Shown here piece by piece: positions 52,016 to 62,092 of a stretch of 64,000 nucleotides of DNA (positions within the stretch are counted from its first letter, which is position 1; each line of letters begins with the position of its first letter). The notes under the pieces are model-generated. The model was not told where the DNA came from. It saw only the letters and a program-made list of their open reading frames with translations, and made no database searches. Source of the stretch: Nitrososphaeria archaeon. GTDB taxonomy: Archaea > Thermoproteota > Nitrososphaeria > JACIWG01. Both the position numbers and the translations under genes were made by a program. The stretch lies in contig JARVJP010000009.1 in the NCBI GenBank assembly GCA_029776065.1, positions 260,514-324,513 on the forward strand, in the 5' to 3' direction.

Positions 52016-52091
52016 GCTCCGATGGTGTAGTCCGGTCAAGCATGTCGGCCTTTCGAGCCGTAGATCCCGGGTTCAAATCCCGGTCGGAGCA
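52016..52091 (+). tRNA. tRNA-Glu(TTC)
   Basis: Acceptor GCTCCGA/TCGGAGC, anticodon TTC. Confidence 0.95.
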
Positions 52092-52273
52092 CTTAAACCC
52101 TCCGTTTAGAATCGCCACCAGATTTTGTTACAACATCACCAAAACTACTTATAGATGTCTCTTAAATATGACTAATTTTAGGTGCTTTAACTTTGATGGC
52201 GGGAAGTCCTCCTGCGAAAGCTGGGGGATGAAAGCCGAAAAATATTTATAGTTTATAAAGAAAATTAGTAACT

Positions 52274-52681
52274 ATGAAATATAAGCTTGATAGAGGCGCG
52301 CATTCAGTTTATGCTCTTCAATATCATCTTGTTCAGGTAGTAAAATATCGCAGACAGGTGTTCGAAAATGAGAAGATTGTGGATTTTCTGAAGCAAAAAA
52401 TAAGAGAAATAAGCGAAAGTTTTGATGTAGATGTTCTAAACATTGAATGCAATAAAGACCATTTCCACATGCTTTTCAAGGCGAAGCCAACATTAGATAT
52501 GCCAAGATACATCAATGCGATAAAAACTATAACGTCGAGGGAAATCCAGAGAAACTTCCCTGAAGTAAAGGAAAAGCTTTGGAAGGGGGTTTTCTGGTCT
52601 CCATCATATTTCCTCGCCACAACTGGGCAAGTGACTTTGGATGTTTTGAAAAAGTATGTTGAGGAGCAAGGGAATGCCTAG
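52274..52681 (+). CDS. tnpA: IS200/IS605 TnpA, Y1 HUH transposase
   Basis: NKDHFHMLFKAKP (HUH) and VLKKYVEEQGNA catalytic Tyr region. Confidence 0.93.
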   Translation: MKYKLDRGAHSVYALQYHLVQVVKYRRQVFENEKIVDFLKQKIREISESFDVDVLNIECNKDHFHMLFKAKPTLDMPRYINAIKTITSREIQRNFPEVKEKLWKGVFWSPSYFLATTGQVTLDVLKKYVEEQGNA

Positions 52682-53783
52682 CTACAAGTTCAGGATTTAT
52701 CCAAGCAAGGAACAAGAGGGAAGATTGTTTGAAACTTTAGAGTTGTGTAGGCAAACTTACAACTATTTCTTGGCTGAATGGAATGGAAGGGGCAAGATAC
52801 CAAGCAGAATTAAGCTTCAGTCTCAGCTACCTAAACTGAAGAAGGAAAAGCCTGAGTTGAACAGGGTCTACTCAAAAGTTTTGCAGATGGTTCTCCACCA
52901 GCTTTACTCAAACCTAAAAGCCTTATCACAGTTGAAGAAAAATGGAAAGAAAGTTGGACGGTTAAGGTTCAAGGGTAAAGGTTGGTTCAAAACATTCGTC
53001 TACAACCAAAGTGGTTTCAAATTGATAAAAACAGGGAAGAGGCTTGACTTGCTCCACCTATCTAAAATAGGCGACATACCTATAAGGGTTCACAGACCCG
53101 TTGAAGGAAGAATTAAACAAGTCATAGTGAAGAGGCATAACTCGGGCAAATGGTTTGCCTGTGTTTGCGTTGAGAAAGAAGTGAACGTTGTTCAAAGAGA
53201 GCCTAAAAATGTTGTAGGCTTAGATGTTGGAATAAAACACTTTCTCACGGACAGTGACGGAAGACAAATAGAGAATCCGAGATTCTATGAGAAAACACTT
53301 AGAAGGATAAGAGTTCTCCAACATTGGCTTTCAAGGAAGCGTAAAGGCTCAAAAAATAGAGAGAAACAGAGAATCAAGCTTGCCAAAGCTTATGAAAGGC
53401 TTATAAACCAAAGAAACGACTTTCTGCATAAACTTTCAAGATTCTATGTAAACAATTACGACGTAATATGTGTTGAAAACCTAAACATAAAAAATATGGT
53501 TAGAAACCACAACTTAGCCCAGAAGATACTTGATGCCTCTTGGGGAAAATTCCTTCAGATGTTGTCCTACAAAGCTGAGAACGCTGGTAGGACGGTCGTG
53601 AAGGTGAACCCAAGAGGCACATCAGAAGGGCTAAGTTATGAAAATCCCTATAAGGATTGGATTTCAGCTATGCGAATAAAGATGCGGGGATGGAACAACC
53701 CTAAGACGCCTGCTAAGATGAAGCCCCTACTGGCTTACGTGCCAGCAAGCCTCATCGTTGAAGCAGGAAGCCCCTTGCGATAG
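52656..53783 (+). CDS. tnpB: TnpB, RuvC-like RNA-guided nuclease family
   Basis: VVGLDVGIKHFLTDSDG, VICVENLNIKNM, KDWISAMRIKMRGW; Cys zinc ribbon not apparent. Confidence 0.9.
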   Translation: MLRSKGMPSYKFRIYPSKEQEGRLFETLELCRQTYNYFLAEWNGRGKIPSRIKLQSQLPKLKKEKPELNRVYSKVLQMVLHQLYSNLKALSQLKKNGKKVGRLRFKGKGWFKTFVYNQSGFKLIKTGKRLDLLHLSKIGDIPIRVHRPVEGRIKQVIVKRHNSGKWFACVCVEKEVNVVQREPKNVVGLDVGIKHFLTDSDGRQIENPRFYEKTLRRIRVLQHWLSRKRKGSKNREKQRIKLAKAYERLINQRNDFLHKLSRFYVNNYDVICVENLNIKNMVRNHNLAQKILDASWGKFLQMLSYKAENAGRTVVKVNPRGTSEGLSYENPYKDWISAMRIKMRGWNNPKTPAKMKPLLAYVPASLIVEAGSPLR

Positions 53784-53927: not shown

Positions 53928-54146
53928 GTGGGTATGGAGATAGAGCTTGAGGGCGTTGTTAGGGCTACTGGCCCGGGTAGGATGGTTATCGCTAAGGAGA
54001 GGGTGAGGTACTGGTTTGTCAAGAACGCTAAGCTCGTCGAAGTCGAGAACTGTGAAGCCCTTAAGGCGATGGGGAAGGGGGAGCGTAGGAAGCTGCATGG
54101 GAAGCATGTGAAGATAGTGATTGAAATAGAGGGGGTGGAAGCATGA
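53928..54146 (+). CDS. Hypothetical 72-aa protein
   Basis: Start of a run of overlapping + strand ORFs (54143 start overlaps its stop). Confidence 0.6.
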   Translation: MGMEIELEGVVRATGPGRMVIAKERVRYWFVKNAKLVEVENCEALKAMGKGERRKLHGKHVKIVIEIEGVEA

Positions 54147-55132
54147 GGGTTCATGTTTTCGCTGCATCTTCTTTAACAATCCTCCTACTACTCTCCTTCC
54201 TGCAGACGAGCGTGTATGCTGCTAGCTCGGTGCCTATCACGGTGCGATGCGTCTTCGAGGACGGTAGACCTGCGGCAAACGTCCTAGTTGAGGTGTACCA
54301 TGAGAGCGGCCTATTCGGGAAGATGGTGACGGATTTAAATGGTAAGGCTGTTCTCAACCTCCCAGCCAACGAGACATTCACCTTCAAAACCTCATGGTTC
54401 GGGTGGAACGACCAGAGACAGATCACCGTTAAAGTGCCTGTTACGTTAGAGTTCTCGGTGAACGTGGTTGTATACCCTGTTGAGAAAGCCTTCATCCCAC
54501 TCCGCCTTGTAACACTCACGCCCGGAGGGTTCTCGATGTACTTTGAGAAAGCGGATAAGGTTAACGCAACGGTCCAAGCTCTCCAAGGCACGAAGTATTC
54601 TCTTACGATACAGGGCCAGACCGTGACGTTTAGGTCGAACGAGACAGACACCTACTTCATCTTCGTAAACGTGCAGTACAGGGATGTTTCATGGCGCTCT
54701 ATCACGTTAAGCACCTTCTCTGACACCACCTCGCAGAGGGTTTCCCAGAGCATGCTCGTCTATTCCCCTGAAATTGAAGTACAAGCCGTTGTGGACGGTG
54801 TTCCCGCACCACATTACCCTACCTCAGATGAAGTCGCAGAAGCTATGATGAAGCAATGGCAGGCGATGAAGAACGACATTATAAAATCAGTGGTCCAATC
54901 CCTGAGAGACGAGATGCAGCCCGTGCAGGTTGGCGTGAAAAACCTGCAGAACAAGACAGGAGAGCTTTCACAGCAGATCGACATCCTGAGCTCGCTTTCA
55001 AAGGACATGAGCGGTTTCATGAGGAACACGTTGAACAGTTTCCAGGCAAACGCTTGGACGAGCATCGTAGTGTTTGCGGCAATAGTTCTCATCCTACTCA
55101 TCGCCATATACATGAAGAGGGAGATGCGTTGA
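54143..55132 (+). CDS. Secreted protein: signal peptide, carboxypeptidase-regulatory-like domain, coiled coil, C-terminal TM
   Basis: VHVFAASSLTILLLLSFLQTSVYA; CVFEDGRPAANVLVEVYHESGLFGKMVTDLNGKAVLNLP; SIVVFAAIVLILLIAIYMKREMR. Confidence 0.75.
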   Translation: MRVHVFAASSLTILLLLSFLQTSVYAASSVPITVRCVFEDGRPAANVLVEVYHESGLFGKMVTDLNGKAVLNLPANETFTFKTSWFGWNDQRQITVKVPVTLEFSVNVVVYPVEKAFIPLRLVTLTPGGFSMYFEKADKVNATVQALQGTKYSLTIQGQTVTFRSNETDTYFIFVNVQYRDVSWRSITLSTFSDTTSQRVSQSMLVYSPEIEVQAVVDGVPAPHYPTSDEVAEAMMKQWQAMKNDIIKSVVQSLRDEMQPVQVGVKNLQNKTGELSQQIDILSSLSKDMSGFMRNTLNSFQANAWTSIVVFAAIVLILLIAIYMKREMR

Positions 55133-56208
55133 AGGACCAGAAGGCCTACCCGATCACATTATACATTTCAATCCTAGCGTTAGCGTTCATACTAATTTCT
55201 GGAGCGTGGAGCCAAATCTACGAAACATACACAGTGCCAGCCCTGACAGTGTTGGCTTTCCTACTCCTCTTCATAGCTTGGCTGCTAGGCAACACGAGGC
55301 CCGGCTTCCCTGGGAGGATGCTGGGCATCACATTGTTCTACGGCCTACAGGGCTCAACCTTCAGACGCTTCGAAGCATTGCTCGTAGACATAACCGACAG
55401 CTTAAGCGATGATGCGTTGAACGAGTTCCGCCAAGCAGCGAAAGAAGACCTAGGGGAACAGTATAAGAAGGAAGGCGACGAGAAAAAGAGATCCGACATA
55501 CAGAAGGCGATGGAGGCGCTTGATAAGGTCAACGCCACTGAGGTAAAAAGGTTCATGCAGGTCTACGGCTGCAGGAGGGACTTCACCAGACACGTGTGGG
55601 TCGTGCTAGCTGAGAAACCTATCGAGGAATACATGTTCGCAAGCACGATAACCTCGTTCACCCTACCGTTCGGCTACATTAGGAGACAGGCAGTGTTCGG
55701 GTTAAGACACGATTTCGGCCGGATGAAAGTTGCTAGAGAAACGCTGAGAGTTCACCTGTTCATGCCCCTCCTAGATGTAGAAAAAGTCTCCGAAAATAAG
55801 ATGGTTCCAGGAGAGTTTGCTTCAGCCTTAGCTGAAATCGGTGCAGCCATACGCAGTGCACTGTTACTGCGTATAGAGAACAGGATGCTGAGGAAGGAGT
55901 TGAAGGCGAGGGAGAAGAGGATGCGTGAAACCGAGAGGCAGCTCAGCAGGCTCGCGAAGGAAACGGACATAGCGAGGGAGGCTGCTAAATCAAAGGTGCT
56001 CGAGCCACCTACAGAGGATGAAGCGAAGATTGCGAAGTCGAAGCCTGTTCAATCCCTATACTATGAACTGCTTTTCGCTACAGTAGCAGGCCAAATAATC
56101 GGTGCTGCACTGATTCCACAACTGGTTCAAATAGACGCCTTCATGGCAAGCGTTCTAGGGTCTATAGGAGGAGCAGCGGTCTTCTTCGTGTTCGTTGCGG
56201 AAAGGTGA
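55129..56208 (+). CDS. Polytopic membrane protein with large cytoplasmic/coiled-coil domain
   Basis: TTG start overlapping the previous TGA (MKDQKAYPITLYISILALAFILISGAW...); TM pairs at both ends. The tracked start 54856 lies in the wrong frame over the previous gene. Confidence 0.75.
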   Translation: MKDQKAYPITLYISILALAFILISGAWSQIYETYTVPALTVLAFLLLFIAWLLGNTRPGFPGRMLGITLFYGLQGSTFRRFEALLVDITDSLSDDALNEFRQAAKEDLGEQYKKEGDEKKRSDIQKAMEALDKVNATEVKRFMQVYGCRRDFTRHVWVVLAEKPIEEYMFASTITSFTLPFGYIRRQAVFGLRHDFGRMKVARETLRVHLFMPLLDVEKVSENKMVPGEFASALAEIGAAIRSALLLRIENRMLRKELKAREKRMRETERQLSRLAKETDIAREAAKSKVLEPPTEDEAKIAKSKPVQSLYYELLFATVAGQIIGAALIPQLVQIDAFMASVLGSIGGAAVFFVFVAER

Positions 56209-56878
56209 TCCCGTGAGCAGTGTTGAAGACTACCTTTCATCAATTAGGGATGAGATAGAGAATACGAAGGAGGAGATGAGGGATGCGGAGGCGACCGTGA
56301 AATCGTTCGTAGACTTTGTTACTTCAGATAGGCTTTTCAAAGACTACAGCAGGTTCTACCAGCTAGCCTACGACACCCAGAAGGTTGCGAAGGTCTTGGT
56401 TGAGAAGCTTCTATCGTTCGAGATGCAGATCAAGAAGGCTGAGGTGCAGCAGCCTCAGGTAAAGCCTGTGGAAGAGGTGAAGGAAGGAGGTAGGCCGGAG
56501 GAGAAGAAGGGAATCCTCTCACGTATAAGAGAGCGTTTATCAGTAAAGCGGGTTAAGAGGAAGCCTCACAGGGAACCTGCTGTAAACAGCTTGATAGAAT
56601 ACGGGCGTAGCACGATCAGCAGGCTCGACGTGATCTGGAAAGAGTACCGAAACCGCTACCTCCTAATAGCACATCAAGACGTGGAACCTGATATGGAGAG
56701 AGAGCTGCAGAGCAACCTCGAATTCATTTCATATATTACCAACGTGTGCGCAGACATCGTAACGTTCGTGGACGCAGCATACAGCATGAAGATAGCGGAG
56801 CTGGAGGAGAAGTACTCACAACTTATGAAGGCTCTCACGGTTTCTGAAACAGCGCAGCAACCTCTTCCAAAGGAATAA
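56195..56878 (+). CDS. Coiled-coil protein
   Basis: Overlaps previous ORF; SVEDYLSSIRDEIENTKEEMRDAEATVKSF. Confidence 0.65.
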   Translation: MRKGDPVSSVEDYLSSIRDEIENTKEEMRDAEATVKSFVDFVTSDRLFKDYSRFYQLAYDTQKVAKVLVEKLLSFEMQIKKAEVQQPQVKPVEEVKEGGRPEEKKGILSRIRERLSVKRVKRKPHREPAVNSLIEYGRSTISRLDVIWKEYRNRYLLIAHQDVEPDMERELQSNLEFISYITNVCADIVTFVDAAYSMKIAELEEKYSQLMKALTVSETAQQPLPKE

Positions 56879-56944: not shown

Positions 56945-57952
56945 ATGCCAGAACCCGAAGCTTATAAGAATAAAATTATCTGCGGAAACAGCCTAGAAGT
57001 TTTAAAGAACTTTCCTTCAGAAAGCATAGACATGTGTATGTTCAGCCCACCATATTATGGGTTGCGTGATTACGGTAGAAATGCGGAAACTGTTTGGAGC
57101 GATGGATGGCTTGGGCAATTGGGTTTAGAGCCGAATACGAAAATGTACGTTCAACATATGGTTGAAATTAATCATGAGATAAAACGCATCTTGAAACAGA
57201 CTGGAAGCATGTATATTGTTTTAGGAGACACTTATGCTGGTTCCAATTGTGGAAGAGGCGATAAAACTCTTTTTCAAAATTATCGTAGGATGAAGGTTGC
57301 TGAAAACCTGTACGATAAGCCCAGCCCCCAAGCAAAGACCAAGGAATACAAACCCAAATGTCTCATCGGTGTTCCTTGGAGGGTTGCCTTCGCCCTCATA
57401 GATGATGGGTGGATATTAAGAAACTGTTTAGTGTGGTTTAAGCCAAATCACATGCCAAGCTCAGTCAAGGATAGATACTCTAACACCTACGAGTTCATCT
57501 TTTTCTTTGTTAAAAATAGGAAATACTATTTCAATTTAGATGCTATAAGGGAGCCTCATACGAGCATCAAAGATCTGGGAAGAAAAAGAACTGATCAAAT
57601 CCATAGCAAATACTATGGGATAAGACCAAGTGGGTACCTTGTCCAACATCCCAAGGGCAAGAATCCAGGAGATTGTTGGAGTATCCCTACTAAACCTTTC
57701 AAGGAAACACATTTTGCGGTAATGCCTGAAGACATTTGCGTGAAACCAATACTATCAAGCTGTCCTGAAAATGGGATCGTCCTTGACCCGTTTTGCGGTT
57801 CTGGGACAACATGTGTAGTAGCGAAGAAACTTAGTAGAAACTATATCGGAATAGACATAAATCAAAGATACTGTGAGATAGCAAGGCAGAGGCTTGCCCA
57901 AGTACCTGAAAAACTAACCAACTTTATGGAAGCCAAAATAGTTAACGGGTAA
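56945..57952 (+). CDS. Site-specific DNA methyltransferase (SPPYYG type)
   Basis: MCMFSPPYYGLRDYG and VLDPFCGSGTTCVVAKKL. Confidence 0.93.
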   Translation: MPEPEAYKNKIICGNSLEVLKNFPSESIDMCMFSPPYYGLRDYGRNAETVWSDGWLGQLGLEPNTKMYVQHMVEINHEIKRILKQTGSMYIVLGDTYAGSNCGRGDKTLFQNYRRMKVAENLYDKPSPQAKTKEYKPKCLIGVPWRVAFALIDDGWILRNCLVWFKPNHMPSSVKDRYSNTYEFIFFFVKNRKYYFNLDAIREPHTSIKDLGRKRTDQIHSKYYGIRPSGYLVQHPKGKNPGDCWSIPTKPFKETHFAVMPEDICVKPILSSCPENGIVLDPFCGSGTTCVVAKKLSRNYIGIDINQRYCEIARQRLAQVPEKLTNFMEAKIVNG

Positions 57953-57966
57953 ACTTTGGCAAACGG

Positions 57967-58591
57967 TTAAGGGCTTCCCCTTCGTTTCCCACCCTCCTTG
58001 GAAGGAATCATCTCAAAAGCATTAATTACGTGTTCTTCTCTCTTGATTCCAGTTAATTTTTCAGCTTCTTCATTCGCATACTCCTCAGCTGTGTGAGATG
58101 GGCCCCAGTACCAATGCTTTAAATGCCCAACCTCATGTGCTACAGTGAAGCGTAGGAGCCGATCTGCTTTTTCAGGGTCTTCCTTGAAGAGTTGGTCGAA
58201 GCGTTCAGTTATATAGATCTTCGGATTAACTCTCACCTTGTCTTTAACCGATCCGTCTGGGTTATATGTCACCACCCACCCTTTGAGCCTCTGGCATGAG
58301 CCAAGGTGCCTACCCTTTGTTTTGACGAACTCGATTTCTGGAGCATCGACATTAAGCTCTCTGCAATAATGTTTCATGAGCAGCCTCGCCCTCAGCCTCC
58401 AATCCACGTTAGGAGCCGACTTCGTAGCCTCTATGGCGCTGGTGAGCTCCTCCCTTCGCTCTTTCAGGAGTGATTGCTTGTCCGTAGCCCTAGAAGCTAT
58501 TGGGTGAACTACCTTCTTCTCATCGGTGTAGAAGCTTAGAACCTTTCTCTTGTATCCTTCTGGAAGCGTTATCCTCCTCGTAAGGCGTCAC
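57967..58591 (-). CDS. Zinc metalloprotease (HEVGH) with N-terminal module shared with the upstream gene
   Basis: FTVAHEVGHLKHWYWG. Frame is open from the TGA at 58588-58590 (RLTRRITLPEGYKRKVLSFYTDEKKVVHPIASRATDKQSLLKERREELTSAIEATKSAPN) to the tracked GTG at 58405-58407. Confidence 0.75.
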
Positions 58592-59643
58592 TGCTCCATT
58601 TTAGCGATGCAGACCTGGGTTATCGCAGTCTCCTTGGATGCAGGTTCGATAGCCATGAACGTGTCGGTCAACTTAATGTTGTATGCACTGGAGTTTAGTG
58701 AAGTGACGGCGTCCTTCATAAGCTTGGCGTTGAATGCGATTTCTGGGCCGTAGTAAGGTCCATCCAGTATTTTAGTCGCTTTAGTTACATATCTTCCTTC
58801 AACCCATTTATCGTTCTCCCACCTCCCTTCTTCATACGCTCTAGCTTCTAATATTGGTTGGCCTGCCTTGTCCGCTTTCAAGACTAAGAGGGGGTCTCTG
58901 CCTTTTGCGGCTTCGATCGCCTCCTTCAGATCTCTATGGGTTACTACAAGCTCAGCCTTCTTTTCTCCCTCTAGGCGTTTTTTCACCACGTTAAGCACTA
59001 TGCCATCTTCTCGTACAAAGTCGTTTTCTTCATCTACTGGATGCAGTGGGAAACGAAATTCTTTCTTGATGCCTTTGTTTCTGAGCTCCATCCTAAGTAG
59101 GTAGTCTCCCGGGTTATCCGTGTCCCTGATTAAATCGAACTCCCAGTTTACACCTGGTTCGTTTTTGTTCCTGCGTATGATCTCTTTTATTGGCCTAACA
59201 GAATCTATTTCAAAGTCACTTTTTGCGCCTTCGCCTACTTCATTGGATATAGGTATTTCCGTGAAAGAGAAGCTTACTGAGCTAGGGTCTCTGTTGAATA
59301 AAACCAGTTTATCCTTGTAAAGTTTCAGTCTAGCATGCCCCGTGTTTTTGTCGGCATAGGATAAGACACTGTACAGGGAATTAAGGCGTTGTGCATCCAG
59401 TTTGAACTTGTGGTCTCTTGGTGTATGTTTAAAACCTACATCCTCCTCGATAACCTTATTCCTCTGCTCCAGGTTTTCTGTAGGCTCCTCAACCTTTGAG
59501 AGGATCTCCTTCCTCCGCTCCTTTAACTCCTGCAGGCCCGTGGCCTTCGTTATCGGGCGAACCCTTTTTTCCTCATCTGTGAAGAATCCAGTAACCTTCT
59601 TCTTGTACCTTTCTGGGAGCTCAATTTTCACAACCCGGGGCAT
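58588..59643 (-). CDS. Putative sliding-clamp (PCNA/DnaN)-like protein with N-terminal extension
   Basis: LKLYKDKLVLFNRDPSSVSFSF; C-terminal GPEIAFNAKLMKDAVTSLNSSAYNIKLTDTFMAIEPASKETAITQVCIAKMEQ resembles a clamp third domain. Confidence 0.55.
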   Translation of the reverse strand: MPRVVKIELPERYKKKVTGFFTDEEKRVRPITKATGLQELKERRKEILSKVEEPTENLEQRNKVIEEDVGFKHTPRDHKFKLDAQRLNSLYSVLSYADKNTGHARLKLYKDKLVLFNRDPSSVSFSFTEIPISNEVGEGAKSDFEIDSVRPIKEIIRRNKNEPGVNWEFDLIRDTDNPGDYLLRMELRNKGIKKEFRFPLHPVDEENDFVREDGIVLNVVKKRLEGEKKAELVVTHRDLKEAIEAAKGRDPLLVLKADKAGQPILEARAYEEGRWENDKWVEGRYVTKATKILDGPYYGPEIAFNAKLMKDAVTSLNSSAYNIKLTDTFMAIEPASKETAITQVCIAKMEQ

Positions 59644-59700: not shown

Positions 59701-59994
59701 ATGGCTAAAAGAAGGCTTCCACCTATAAGTACAGGCCATAGCCCGATACTAGGCGCCATCGAGCTAACGAAGGAGGAGATCAAGGAGCTGAACGAGAAAG
59801 GCAGCGTGGAAGTAGAGCTTGAAGTAGAGGGCAAGACCATAAAGAAGACCATTCACCCATCGAATGTGAGAGGAGGTAGGGTTCAGTACTACGTGCGCAG
59901 CACTGGAGAGGTTGCTTTCAGAAACTATCCAAGCGACTACGGGCGCTCTGCCACACATCGAGCCTCTAAGGGAAAGCCTTTCGCTGGAGATTAG
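59701..59994 (+). CDS. Hypothetical 97-aa basic protein
   Basis: Directly upstream of the ATPase gene; MAKRRLPPISTGHSPILGAIELTKEEIKELNEKG. Confidence 0.6.
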   Translation: MAKRRLPPISTGHSPILGAIELTKEEIKELNEKGSVEVELEVEGKTIKKTIHPSNVRGGRVQYYVRSTGEVAFRNYPSDYGRSATHRASKGKPFAGD

Positions 59995-60001
59995 TTAAAC
60001 G

Positions 60002-62092
60002 ATGCCTGAGGAGGAGCAGGGGGCATATGCTAGGGTAGAGGGCGTCTTCGGGTTCGAGCGCATGCTATCGAACATCGTGAACGGAAGGATAGAGGACGCT
60101 TACAAGATTGCTGCAATGCTTGCGAACGAGTTGAACATTCCAAGCCCGTATCCATCGCTTGAAAAATACCAGATCGCCTCTCATGTTCTAAATGCGAGGA
60201 CACCCTACTTCCTGAAAGCTGATGTGCTGAAGAGCCTAGGCCTCGATCCTACTCTAACGTTCGAGGAGAACGTGAAGCTACTGTACAGAATGAAATATGA
60301 AGCACTTAGAAGCTTATTCGTCTTCATGAACCGTGCTAGGATCCTGTTCGAGGACAGCTTCGGGATACCCTTGCACAAGCTTCTCAACCCTCAAACGGTG
60401 GACACGCTCATTTACACTTCAACAGGTGCCATAGCTGAAGTTGGAAGCATGCAGCCTGACTTCGTCAACTCAGTCATATTAACAATTTACAGCATAATCT
60501 GCGGAACCGGCATAAAACAATGTTTGAAGCTGCTGAAGTACAGCCTCCTCCACGAATGCTTTATCTGGCTGAGCAAGCACGGGCCTCTGCTGAGGAGGAG
60601 TAGGTACGCTGCTGTCGGCATAAAATATGAGATGCTCTTCTCTCGCATGCGGTCTGAAGTGCACGCTCAGCTTGACCCGCATGTTCGAACCCTAGGTGGG
60701 GAAGAATCTTTGAGGCACATAGAATACGTTCTCCCTGAGGAATGGTTGACCAGTGTGAGCAAGCGTTTCCCAGCACCCTTCCTAGTGGTTGAGAGGAGAG
60801 CTTGGGCAACAGGCATCCCTGTAGCGAACGGCACTGTGAACCTACAGCACCAGCACTTCCCATGGAGGGCTGAAGCGAACCGGCCCCTGCTTGCGACGAT
60901 ACTTGCTACCACAGGGTCTGGGAAGACCACGCTCCTCAACTCCCTAGCGTTCTACATGCTTGAAAGAGGCTCCTTCGGTTTGAGGCTTGAAATCGACGTC
61001 GATGACAGGATGCAGGGTCAACTGATGGCCCTACCATTGGATGAAAAGCACCCGGCATTCGAATCATTGAAGTCCCAGGGATGCAGCCCGAGAGGGTTCG
61101 TGGTTAGAACGCCTACTTCAACGGAGCCGGAGATAACGAAACACGCCATGAATCCTTCAATCGTCTCCCTCATGGTTGTTAAAAACAGGAGGGAGCTGCA
61201 GGAGTTGATGACCAAGCCTACAAAGCTGGACAGGTTACTCTTTGTGAGAAACCATGCGGCCTTCCACATACCATGGGACCGCATGCACAAGGAGGGGAGG
61301 CTCATCTGCCTGAGGTTCCACAGCGAGAGAAACACCGGCACAGTATTCAGCACCCTTTTGAAGAGCTTCGCATTGTGGAGGATGACTCGTAAGGACATGC
61401 CTGTGTTCGTGCAAATCGACGAAGCATACCTCGGTGCAGCATCACGTGTGAGCGCAAGATACGGTAGAACGTATCTGAGAAGCGCAGAGCAGACAGAGGT
61501 CTTCATGAGGGGTGCGAGAGGACTAGGTATCCCGACGTTTCTCTCAACGCAGAGGCCGTATTTTGTCACAGCAGGGGCGAGAAGCCAGGTCAGCCACATC
61601 TTCTCCTCGTACCTTGGAGAGGGAAGGGACATAGATGCAGTCCTCGAGAAGCTACCGCCGAAGAGCGTTGACGTCAACGTCGTAGACACGTTCCTGAAAA
61701 GAAGCGAAATACGTAGTAAACCGTACTTCTGGTTCCTATGGCTCAACCTCCTAGACAGCGAAGTCAAAGTTGTTAGGCCCATGATGCCGCCGTGTGGTGC
61801 TGAGATGCCGAACATGACTGCATGGGACCAGTTCGCAAAACACGGCCTAGCGTTTGAAAGCTGGGACGAGGTTCCAACGCTCTTCCAAGACGTTGGCACT
61901 GAGGATAATCCGCTACCGTTATACGAGCCGTTCCTCCCTGAGAAGGAGGTGGAGAAGCTCTTAGATAGGAGGAGGAAGGGCACACTGTACATGGCAGAAA
62001 AACAGGAAGAAATAGACATACAAAATGAGGACGTGGAAAGTGAACCTAAAGAATCTGAGCATGAATCAGAAGTTGAAGGCTTTAGCTTCTAA
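60002..62092 (+). CDS. VirB4/HerA-like (FtsK-HerA superfamily) ATPase
   Basis: Walker A LATTGSGKTTLLNSLAF, Walker B PVFVQIDEAYL, downstream FLSTQRP. Confidence 0.85.
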   Translation: MPEEEQGAYARVEGVFGFERMLSNIVNGRIEDAYKIAAMLANELNIPSPYPSLEKYQIASHVLNARTPYFLKADVLKSLGLDPTLTFEENVKLLYRMKYEALRSLFVFMNRARILFEDSFGIPLHKLLNPQTVDTLIYTSTGAIAEVGSMQPDFVNSVILTIYSIICGTGIKQCLKLLKYSLLHECFIWLSKHGPLLRRSRYAAVGIKYEMLFSRMRSEVHAQLDPHVRTLGGEESLRHIEYVLPEEWLTSVSKRFPAPFLVVERRAWATGIPVANGTVNLQHQHFPWRAEANRPLLATILATTGSGKTTLLNSLAFYMLERGSFGLRLEIDVDDRMQGQLMALPLDEKHPAFESLKSQGCSPRGFVVRTPTSTEPEITKHAMNPSIVSLMVVKNRRELQELMTKPTKLDRLLFVRNHAAFHIPWDRMHKEGRLICLRFHSERNTGTVFSTLLKSFALWRMTRKDMPVFVQIDEAYLGAASRVSARYGRTYLRSAEQTEVFMRGARGLGIPTFLSTQRPYFVTAGARSQVSHIFSSYLGEGRDIDAVLEKLPPKSVDVNVVDTFLKRSEIRSKPYFWFLWLNLLDSEVKVVRPMMPPCGAEMPNMTAWDQFAKHGLAFESWDEVPTLFQDVGTEDNPLPLYEPFLPEKEVEKLLDRRRKGTLYMAEKQEEIDIQNEDVESEPKESEHESEVEGFSF

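Follow-up and report, generated by a model that had tools for sequence, protein, structure and literature searches.

Shared N-terminal labels on the proteins of mobile elements are already known; for archaeal elements, we did not meet them in the open literature searched. To our knowledge, how archaeal mobile elements select the proteins that travel with their DNA is an open question. In phage T4, the first ten N-terminal residues suffice to send an internal protein into the head, and the internal proteins are ejected into the host (PMC9026906). The archaeal element described here lies in a 64,000-nucleotide stretch of DNA from a Nitrososphaeria archaeon, the whole of which is called the window. 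Like the capsid targeting sequence (CTS) of the T4 proteins IPI, IPII and IPIII, the archaeal tag is a short N-terminal sequence on otherwise unrelated proteins of one element, and in both cases an antirestriction protein is among the cargoes (PMC9026906). The T4 CTS has another sequence, goes with a known capsid and is cut by the prohead protease, whereas no capsid or cleavage is known here. Unlike the CTS, the archaeal tag is also found on a sliding clamp-like protein.

A second precedent comes from conjugation, in which ArdC and TraC1 are transferred and for which ArdC-N has been proposed as an N-terminal header (Iyer et al. 2017, PMC5512222). The tagged proteins of two related elements resemble the polyvalent proteins treated in that work in that they include probable ArdC-N and MPTase-PolyVal-type domains. 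Polyvalent proteins have 2-15 domains per chain, whereas the tagged proteins are mostly single-domain proteins, each with a short header (PMC5512222). The archaeal tag precedes ArdC-N and is distinct from it.

Two further systems resemble the element around the tag. Thaumarchaeal integrative-conjugative and cryptic integrated elements come from the same archaeal class and likewise have an ATPase and tyrosine integrases, the latter seen here in relatives of the window element (PMC6563490). The integrative-conjugative elements carry VirB4, VirD4 and TFIIB, whereas the window element has a HerA/VirB4-like ATPase, and neither VirD4 nor TFIIB was recognised among its proteins with Pfam or NCBIfam; PCNA, ArdC and metalloproteases are not mentioned in the text on those elements (PMC6563490). 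The Ced/Ted DNA-import systems, like the window element, combine a HerA/VirB4-like ATPase with multi-pass membrane partners (PMC9905601). However, CedA has 6-7 TM segments as opposed to four TM-like segments in g3, the multi-pass protein listed below, no pilin was recognised here, and Ced is chromosomal and domesticated, whereas the window cassette belongs to mobile elements (PMC9905601).

The window element and its two tagged genes

The element covers ~53.9 to 62.1 kb of the window, with a GC content of 0.49 vs 0.37 for the first 52 kb of the window. Its borders were set by GC content and gene content only, because no tRNA-Glu repeat was found within 35 kb. The genes outside the tagged pair are given here, with loci of related elements in other genomes as L numbers:

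53928-54146, plus strand: g1, a small conserved ORF heading the cassette; L017 has a similar small ORF in the corresponding position, as judged by reading, with no statistical score
54143-55132, plus strand: g2, with an N-terminal signal or TM segment and a C-terminal TM segment by hydropathy; tblastn to L017, E 2e-14
55114-56208, plus strand: g3, a four-TM membrane protein (start approximate); homologues in L008, L017, L018 and L019, E 7e-35 to 6e-73
56195-56878, plus strand: g4, a soluble cassette protein; L008 homologue E 4e-62, L017 weak, E 0.002
56945-57952, plus strand: DNA methyltransferase (N6/N4), untagged; Pfam PF01555 E 2e-52, homologue in L021 (JdFR-13) E 8e-80
59701-59994, plus strand: small protein, divergent from the clamp gene; L021:6148-6492 (JdFR-13 element), score 116 vs shuffle maximum 57
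60002-62092, plus strand: HerA/VirB4-like ATPase, 696 aa; PADLOC HerA/mads_8 matches, homologues 33-63% identical in other genomes

The matches of the ATPase to the HerA/VirB4 families are weak. By hydropathy, g4 and the ATPase are soluble, g3 has four hydrophobic segments and g2 has one N-terminal and one C-terminal segment; the tagged proteins examined in this way showed no TM segment. As judged from sequence, g2, g3 and g4 may form a membrane machine with the ATPase. Among the genes of the window element, we recognised none for a relaxase, VirD4, a pilin or a capsid; Pfam and PHROGs gave no capsid protein among its proteins, most of which are without any match. Weak Pfam matches of window proteins below the cut-off, such as Tex_N (E 0.11), were disregarded.

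At the left border of the element, an IS200/IS605-like TnpA (135 aa) and a TnpB-like ORF (375 aa) were identified by reading at 52274-53783. A tRNA-Glu (ttc) lies near the left side at 52016-52092; integration into it with a duplicated end was considered and rejected, since no repeat was present within 35 kb.

The two tagged ORFs are on the minus strand:

58588-59643, minus strand: clamp-like protein, 351 aa, with a PCNA-like fold after the tag
59476-59643, minus strand: first 56 residues of the clamp-like protein, its tag region, 27/49 identical to the zincin copy
59551-59586, minus strand: tag core of the clamp-like protein, FFTDEEKRVRPI, class I, 37 bits vs at most 16.3 in shuffles
57967-58587, minus strand: open frame of 206 codons for a zincin metalloprotease, with its HEVGH motif at 58123-58137
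58414-58587, minus strand: part of the zincin ORF that holds the tag (open-frame residues 1-58), with no standard start codon ahead
58498-58533, minus strand: tag core of the zincin ORF, FYTDEKKVVHPI

The original prediction was that these two proteins begin with a homologous segment in front of two unrelated domains, and both parts of it proved correct. BLASTP, run as a single comparison, found 27/49 identical residues (73% positive, E = 8e-13), and the Smith-Waterman score of the tags was 118, whereas 20,000 shuffles reached 60 at most (z = 18). Outside the tag, the two proteins scored 40, with no similarity. Synonymous sites between the two tag copies are near saturation while the protein is conserved (dN 0.34, dS 1.6 and dN/dS ~0.2, rough values given the few codons, 46 aligned), indicating that both copies have been maintained at the protein level. 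No third clear copy appeared in the window's own genome with a two-segment profile (next match E 0.07).

The clamp-like protein has no match above cut-off to the PCNA families of Pfam or NCBIfam, with DNA_pol3_beta_3 (E 0.0065) falling below it. Its single-sequence AF2 model is of low confidence (pLDDT 53). In a Foldseek search of the PDB with this pLDDT 53 model, all 50 matches listed were sliding clamps or clamp complexes (9-1-1, PCNA, DnaN), with E 4e-7 to 9e-6, probability 1.00 and TM-scores of 0.26-0.38. By its modelled fold, though not by Pfam, the protein is PCNA-like; the host PCNA is a distinct gene elsewhere in the genome. The zincin has HEVGH where its L021 (JdFR-13) ortholog has HEVAH (cargo score 92, z 12), and AF2 places a helix at 138-161. 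Its fold matches, to SprT/IrrE-like phage proteins, are weak (best E 6e-3), with no significant structural match in the PDB, and neither ArdC-N nor MPTase-PolyVal was found in it with Pfam. In AF2 without an alignment, most of each window tag is below pLDDT 50, so that no tag structure can be claimed from the models. The tag core probably folds as a beta-hairpin.

The zincin open frame is in the same frame as the clamp ORF and begins directly after the clamp TGA (58588-58590). Between this TGA and a GTG at 58407, which is in the zincin frame and downstream of the tag, there is no ATG, GTG or TTG from which the tag could start. One GTG does overlap the clamp stop codon (region 58570-58595), but it is displaced by one base from the frame of the zincin tag. 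The frames would permit programmed stop-codon readthrough into a single clamp-zincin protein; the tagged genes of L021 have their own ATG starts, which makes a separate zincin protein likelier than a readthrough fusion, and we rejected it. Because the GTG at the clamp stop is just one base out of frame, a one-base difference or unusual initiation is likelier. Thus, the zincin gene of the window has either unusual initiation, a frame mutation or a one-base assembly error, and this copy, whose tag lacks a regular start codon, may be decaying there.

Tag core and cargoes in related elements

Direct searches of viral contigs gave no relatives of the clamp, the zincin or the ATPase and no match to the two-sequence tag profile. 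This profile also found nothing in genome contigs, the clamp and the zincin had no detectable relative in 300-400 related genomes, and no relatives turned up for the ATPase in plasmids and phages or for the clamp in phages. Relatives emerged only when the ATPase was used as a lead in whole-genome searches, with homologues in 4 other genomes of 400 of the class and in 2 of 398 of the phylum. The expectation that the tag would occur elsewhere, which searches with single proteins or with two sequences had left without a match, was borne out by this route, as the same core was found in three other genomes. These include Candidatus Scotarchaeum otlingeri JdFR-13 (G020, element locus L021) and the Thaumarchaeota MAG FK_Sedi_A_Bin.149 (G034); for the fifth ATPase-bearing genome (G046), just a 3-kb contig of its element is available. 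In L008, L017, L018 and L019, homologues of g3 and the ATPase stand together with one gene between them at the g4 position, which is clearly g4-like only in L008; g2 was seen in L017. Two of these loci, L018 and L019, are contigs C8 and C11 of G034, that is, two close copies of the element in one MAG with tagged genes in both.

A shared module of ~55 aa had been proposed. At that length it is real in the window pair; beyond the window element, the common part is ~12 residues, F[FY]TDxxxRxRPI, and the flanks, KIxLPExYKxKV and an LKERRxEL helix, were seen in the window element only. The core occurs in two forms, class I (F[FY]TDxxGRxRPI) and a class II variant (FxTKGxGxxRKVxPI). Both proteins of the window pair carry the tag, and it is not confined to them: the element family contains at least 16 tagged ORFs, 12 of class I (including two near-identical copies) and 4 of class II, i.e. 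14 beyond the window pair. The core begins within ~30 residues of the start in all 16. Leave-one-out PSSM scores were 25-37 bits for class I and 33-36 bits for class II, compared with maxima of 16.3 and 15.4, respectively, in 6,350 shuffled ORFs and 10.5 for the next real ORF.

Tagged cargoes are the clamp, zincins, ArdC antirestriction proteins, a DUF6876 protein and unknowns. Class I accounts for three proteins in JdFR-13, two zincin-like and one unknown, and for several in the G034 elements, including the DUF6876 protein. Class II precedes ArdC in both G034 and G054 and is present on another two proteins. Unknowns are among the tagged proteins of G034 as well. The G034 ArdC matches phrog_7245 anti-restriction (E 2e-8), along with MPTase-PolyVal (E 8e-4) and ArdcN (E 0.05), both below the curated cut-off. 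Tagged proteins are 100-351 aa long with one recognisable cargo each, the exception being ArdC with two domains. The conserved ATPase, g1-g4, methyltransferase and integrases of the elements are untagged. The two zincin-like proteins of L021 resemble paralogues, and the second (L021:9187-9795) has VHEMTRLK where its neighbour has AHEVAHLK; from this sequence, it is probably no longer catalytic.

Zincins, or ArdC with a zincin domain, occur alongside tagged proteins in the window, L021, L056 and L017 elements, as would be expected if the tag were a processing site, with an element zincin cleaving it off itself and off the other tagged proteins and so activating or releasing them. There are parallels in the prohead protease, which removes T4 targeting sequences (PMC9026906), and in MPTase domains, which have been proposed to process polyvalent proteins (PMC5512222). 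Yet we saw no conserved cleavage-like site behind the core, and the zincin bears the tag too. Moreover, transfer leaves ArdC and TraC1 uncut (PMC5512222). We consider processing very unlikely.

We also considered whether the FF/FY pair of the tag could be a PIP-box, which would bind PCNA. Many tags begin 2-3 residues after Met and do not have the required upstream positions, and the clamp itself is tagged; this reading was rejected.

Within the class, the core is restricted to the element. Exact class I matches numbered eight, in 3 of 400 genomes, and 8/8 were in ATPase-bearing genomes and inside the element (Fisher p 9e-7); when the pattern was reversed as a control, a single match turned up across the 400 genomes. 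The class II pattern had four matches in 81 genomes, 4/4 in element contigs of the ATPase-bearing G034 and G054.

Sorting of the tag by element and its possible reader

Tag similarity tracks the element rather than the cargo. The mean pairwise tag score in class I was 67 within elements vs 46 between them, and this sorting was matched by 3 of 2,520 relabelings (6 of 756 without the paralogous zincin). The orthologous zincins of the window and JdFR-13 have tags that score just 38, whereas the tags of the unrelated window clamp and zincin score 118 and those of the JdFR-13 zincin and its unknown neighbour score 96. Such sorting is a prediction of co-evolution with an element-specific reader. Tag copying between adjacent genes would equally yield it.

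Copying is part of an explanation in which the tag has no dedicated role and is an N-terminal beta-hairpin for folding or expression, spread between neighbours by duplication or gene conversion. This would suit the adjacent clamp and zincin genes in one frame, the window zincin that may be decaying with no regular start codon for its tag, and the paralogous look of the two L021 proteins. It fits poorly with synonymous sites near saturation and a retained protein sequence, and with a tag that is on several unrelated cargoes and absent from the ATPase, g2-g4, the methyltransferase and the integrases. On balance, we find it distinctly unlikely.

A reader could also act within the same cell. The tag would then be a docking module through which the clamp, zincin, ArdC and other tagged proteins gather on a single scaffold encoded by the element, in a replication, maintenance or DNA-protection complex, with no delivery. 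That the sliding clamp itself bears the tag argues for this, as does sorting by element, which is expected of a co-evolving docking pair. So does a small conserved gene that immediately precedes a tagged gene in each of four loci and could encode a scaffold or adaptor. Its product, a protein of ~80-95 aa with an ISYKKAMDRL motif (L018:1280-1552, L019:6442-6705, L017:405-650 and L021:5852-6142), is a candidate adaptor for the tag. However, the window element has no clear copy of this ~90-aa upstream gene, and ArdC, zincins, DUF6876 and unknowns make no obvious single complex. Docking alone seems to us somewhat unlikely.

We tentatively favour reading the tag as a recognition header for a partner that the element itself encodes; its likeliest use would be to send establishment proteins along with the DNA. 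Archaeal integrated elements would put the short header, with its core F[FY]TDxxGRxRPI, on several soluble proteins, and one element-encoded partner would recognise it. In this way, the clamp, the zincin and the ArdC antirestriction protein would be singled out as establishment proteins to be delivered. Their exit could be through the membrane cassette g2-g3-g4 and the HerA/VirB4-like ATPase, or in a particle, and they would enter the new cell together with the element DNA. We infer the single reader, its membership of the cassette and delivery itself; delivery is favoured because of the cargo (ArdC, zincin, clamp), the membrane ATPase cassette and the two precedents, T4 and ArdC/TraC1. A cargo of ArdC, zincins and a PCNA-like clamp fits establishment. 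Several findings speak against this reading: the weak family matches of the ATPase, a window element with no recognised relaxase, VirD4, pilin or capsid gene, bacterial proteins that bear the core and are probably not delivered, and a window zincin that may be decaying. Tag copying, too, would account for the sorting.

Slightly less firmly, we suggest a delivery code for these archaeal elements, in which the ATPase/membrane machine reads the header on the clamp, the zincins and ArdC, with the header tuned separately in every element. The DNA would then reach a new cell with a processivity clamp and antirestriction proteins. A header recognisable from sequence would be a direct handle on which proteins travel with archaeal element DNA and a signature for element-family proteins missed by database searches; its reader could be found as the element protein that co-evolves with it.

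The core outside this archaeal class

The tag had been proposed to be element-specific. This is upheld by the variety of unrelated cargoes, by the confinement of the tag to these elements within the class and by tag similarity that follows the element, but the core also stands at bacterial N-termini. In ~85,000 public genomes, the strict pattern also matched the N-terminal end of one Pontibacter protein and of a protein family in Pseudonocardiales. In this archaeal class, then, the core is confined to the elements, but it is not unique to these archaea. Its presence at the N-terminus of unrelated bacterial proteins adds to the case for a tag with no dedicated role; outside the class, it may reflect convergence or equally wider use.

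The bacterial proteins with a near-identical starting core (L024-L041 in Pseudonocardiales and L036 in Pontibacter; MPDFFTDGQGRVRPITKKK; MSIVKFFTDRFGRVRPITPKS) are of unknown function, and in Pseudonocardiales the core is followed by a hydrophobic stretch. These proteins are probably not delivered. In viral contigs, which were scanned for class I, the strict pattern matched an internal site of one large phage protein. This protein, of more than 1,460 aa and with no family match, is encoded near a terminase gene (phage contig L022:6011-10594) and has the core at about residue 100 (AFFTDASGRVRPITAPS).
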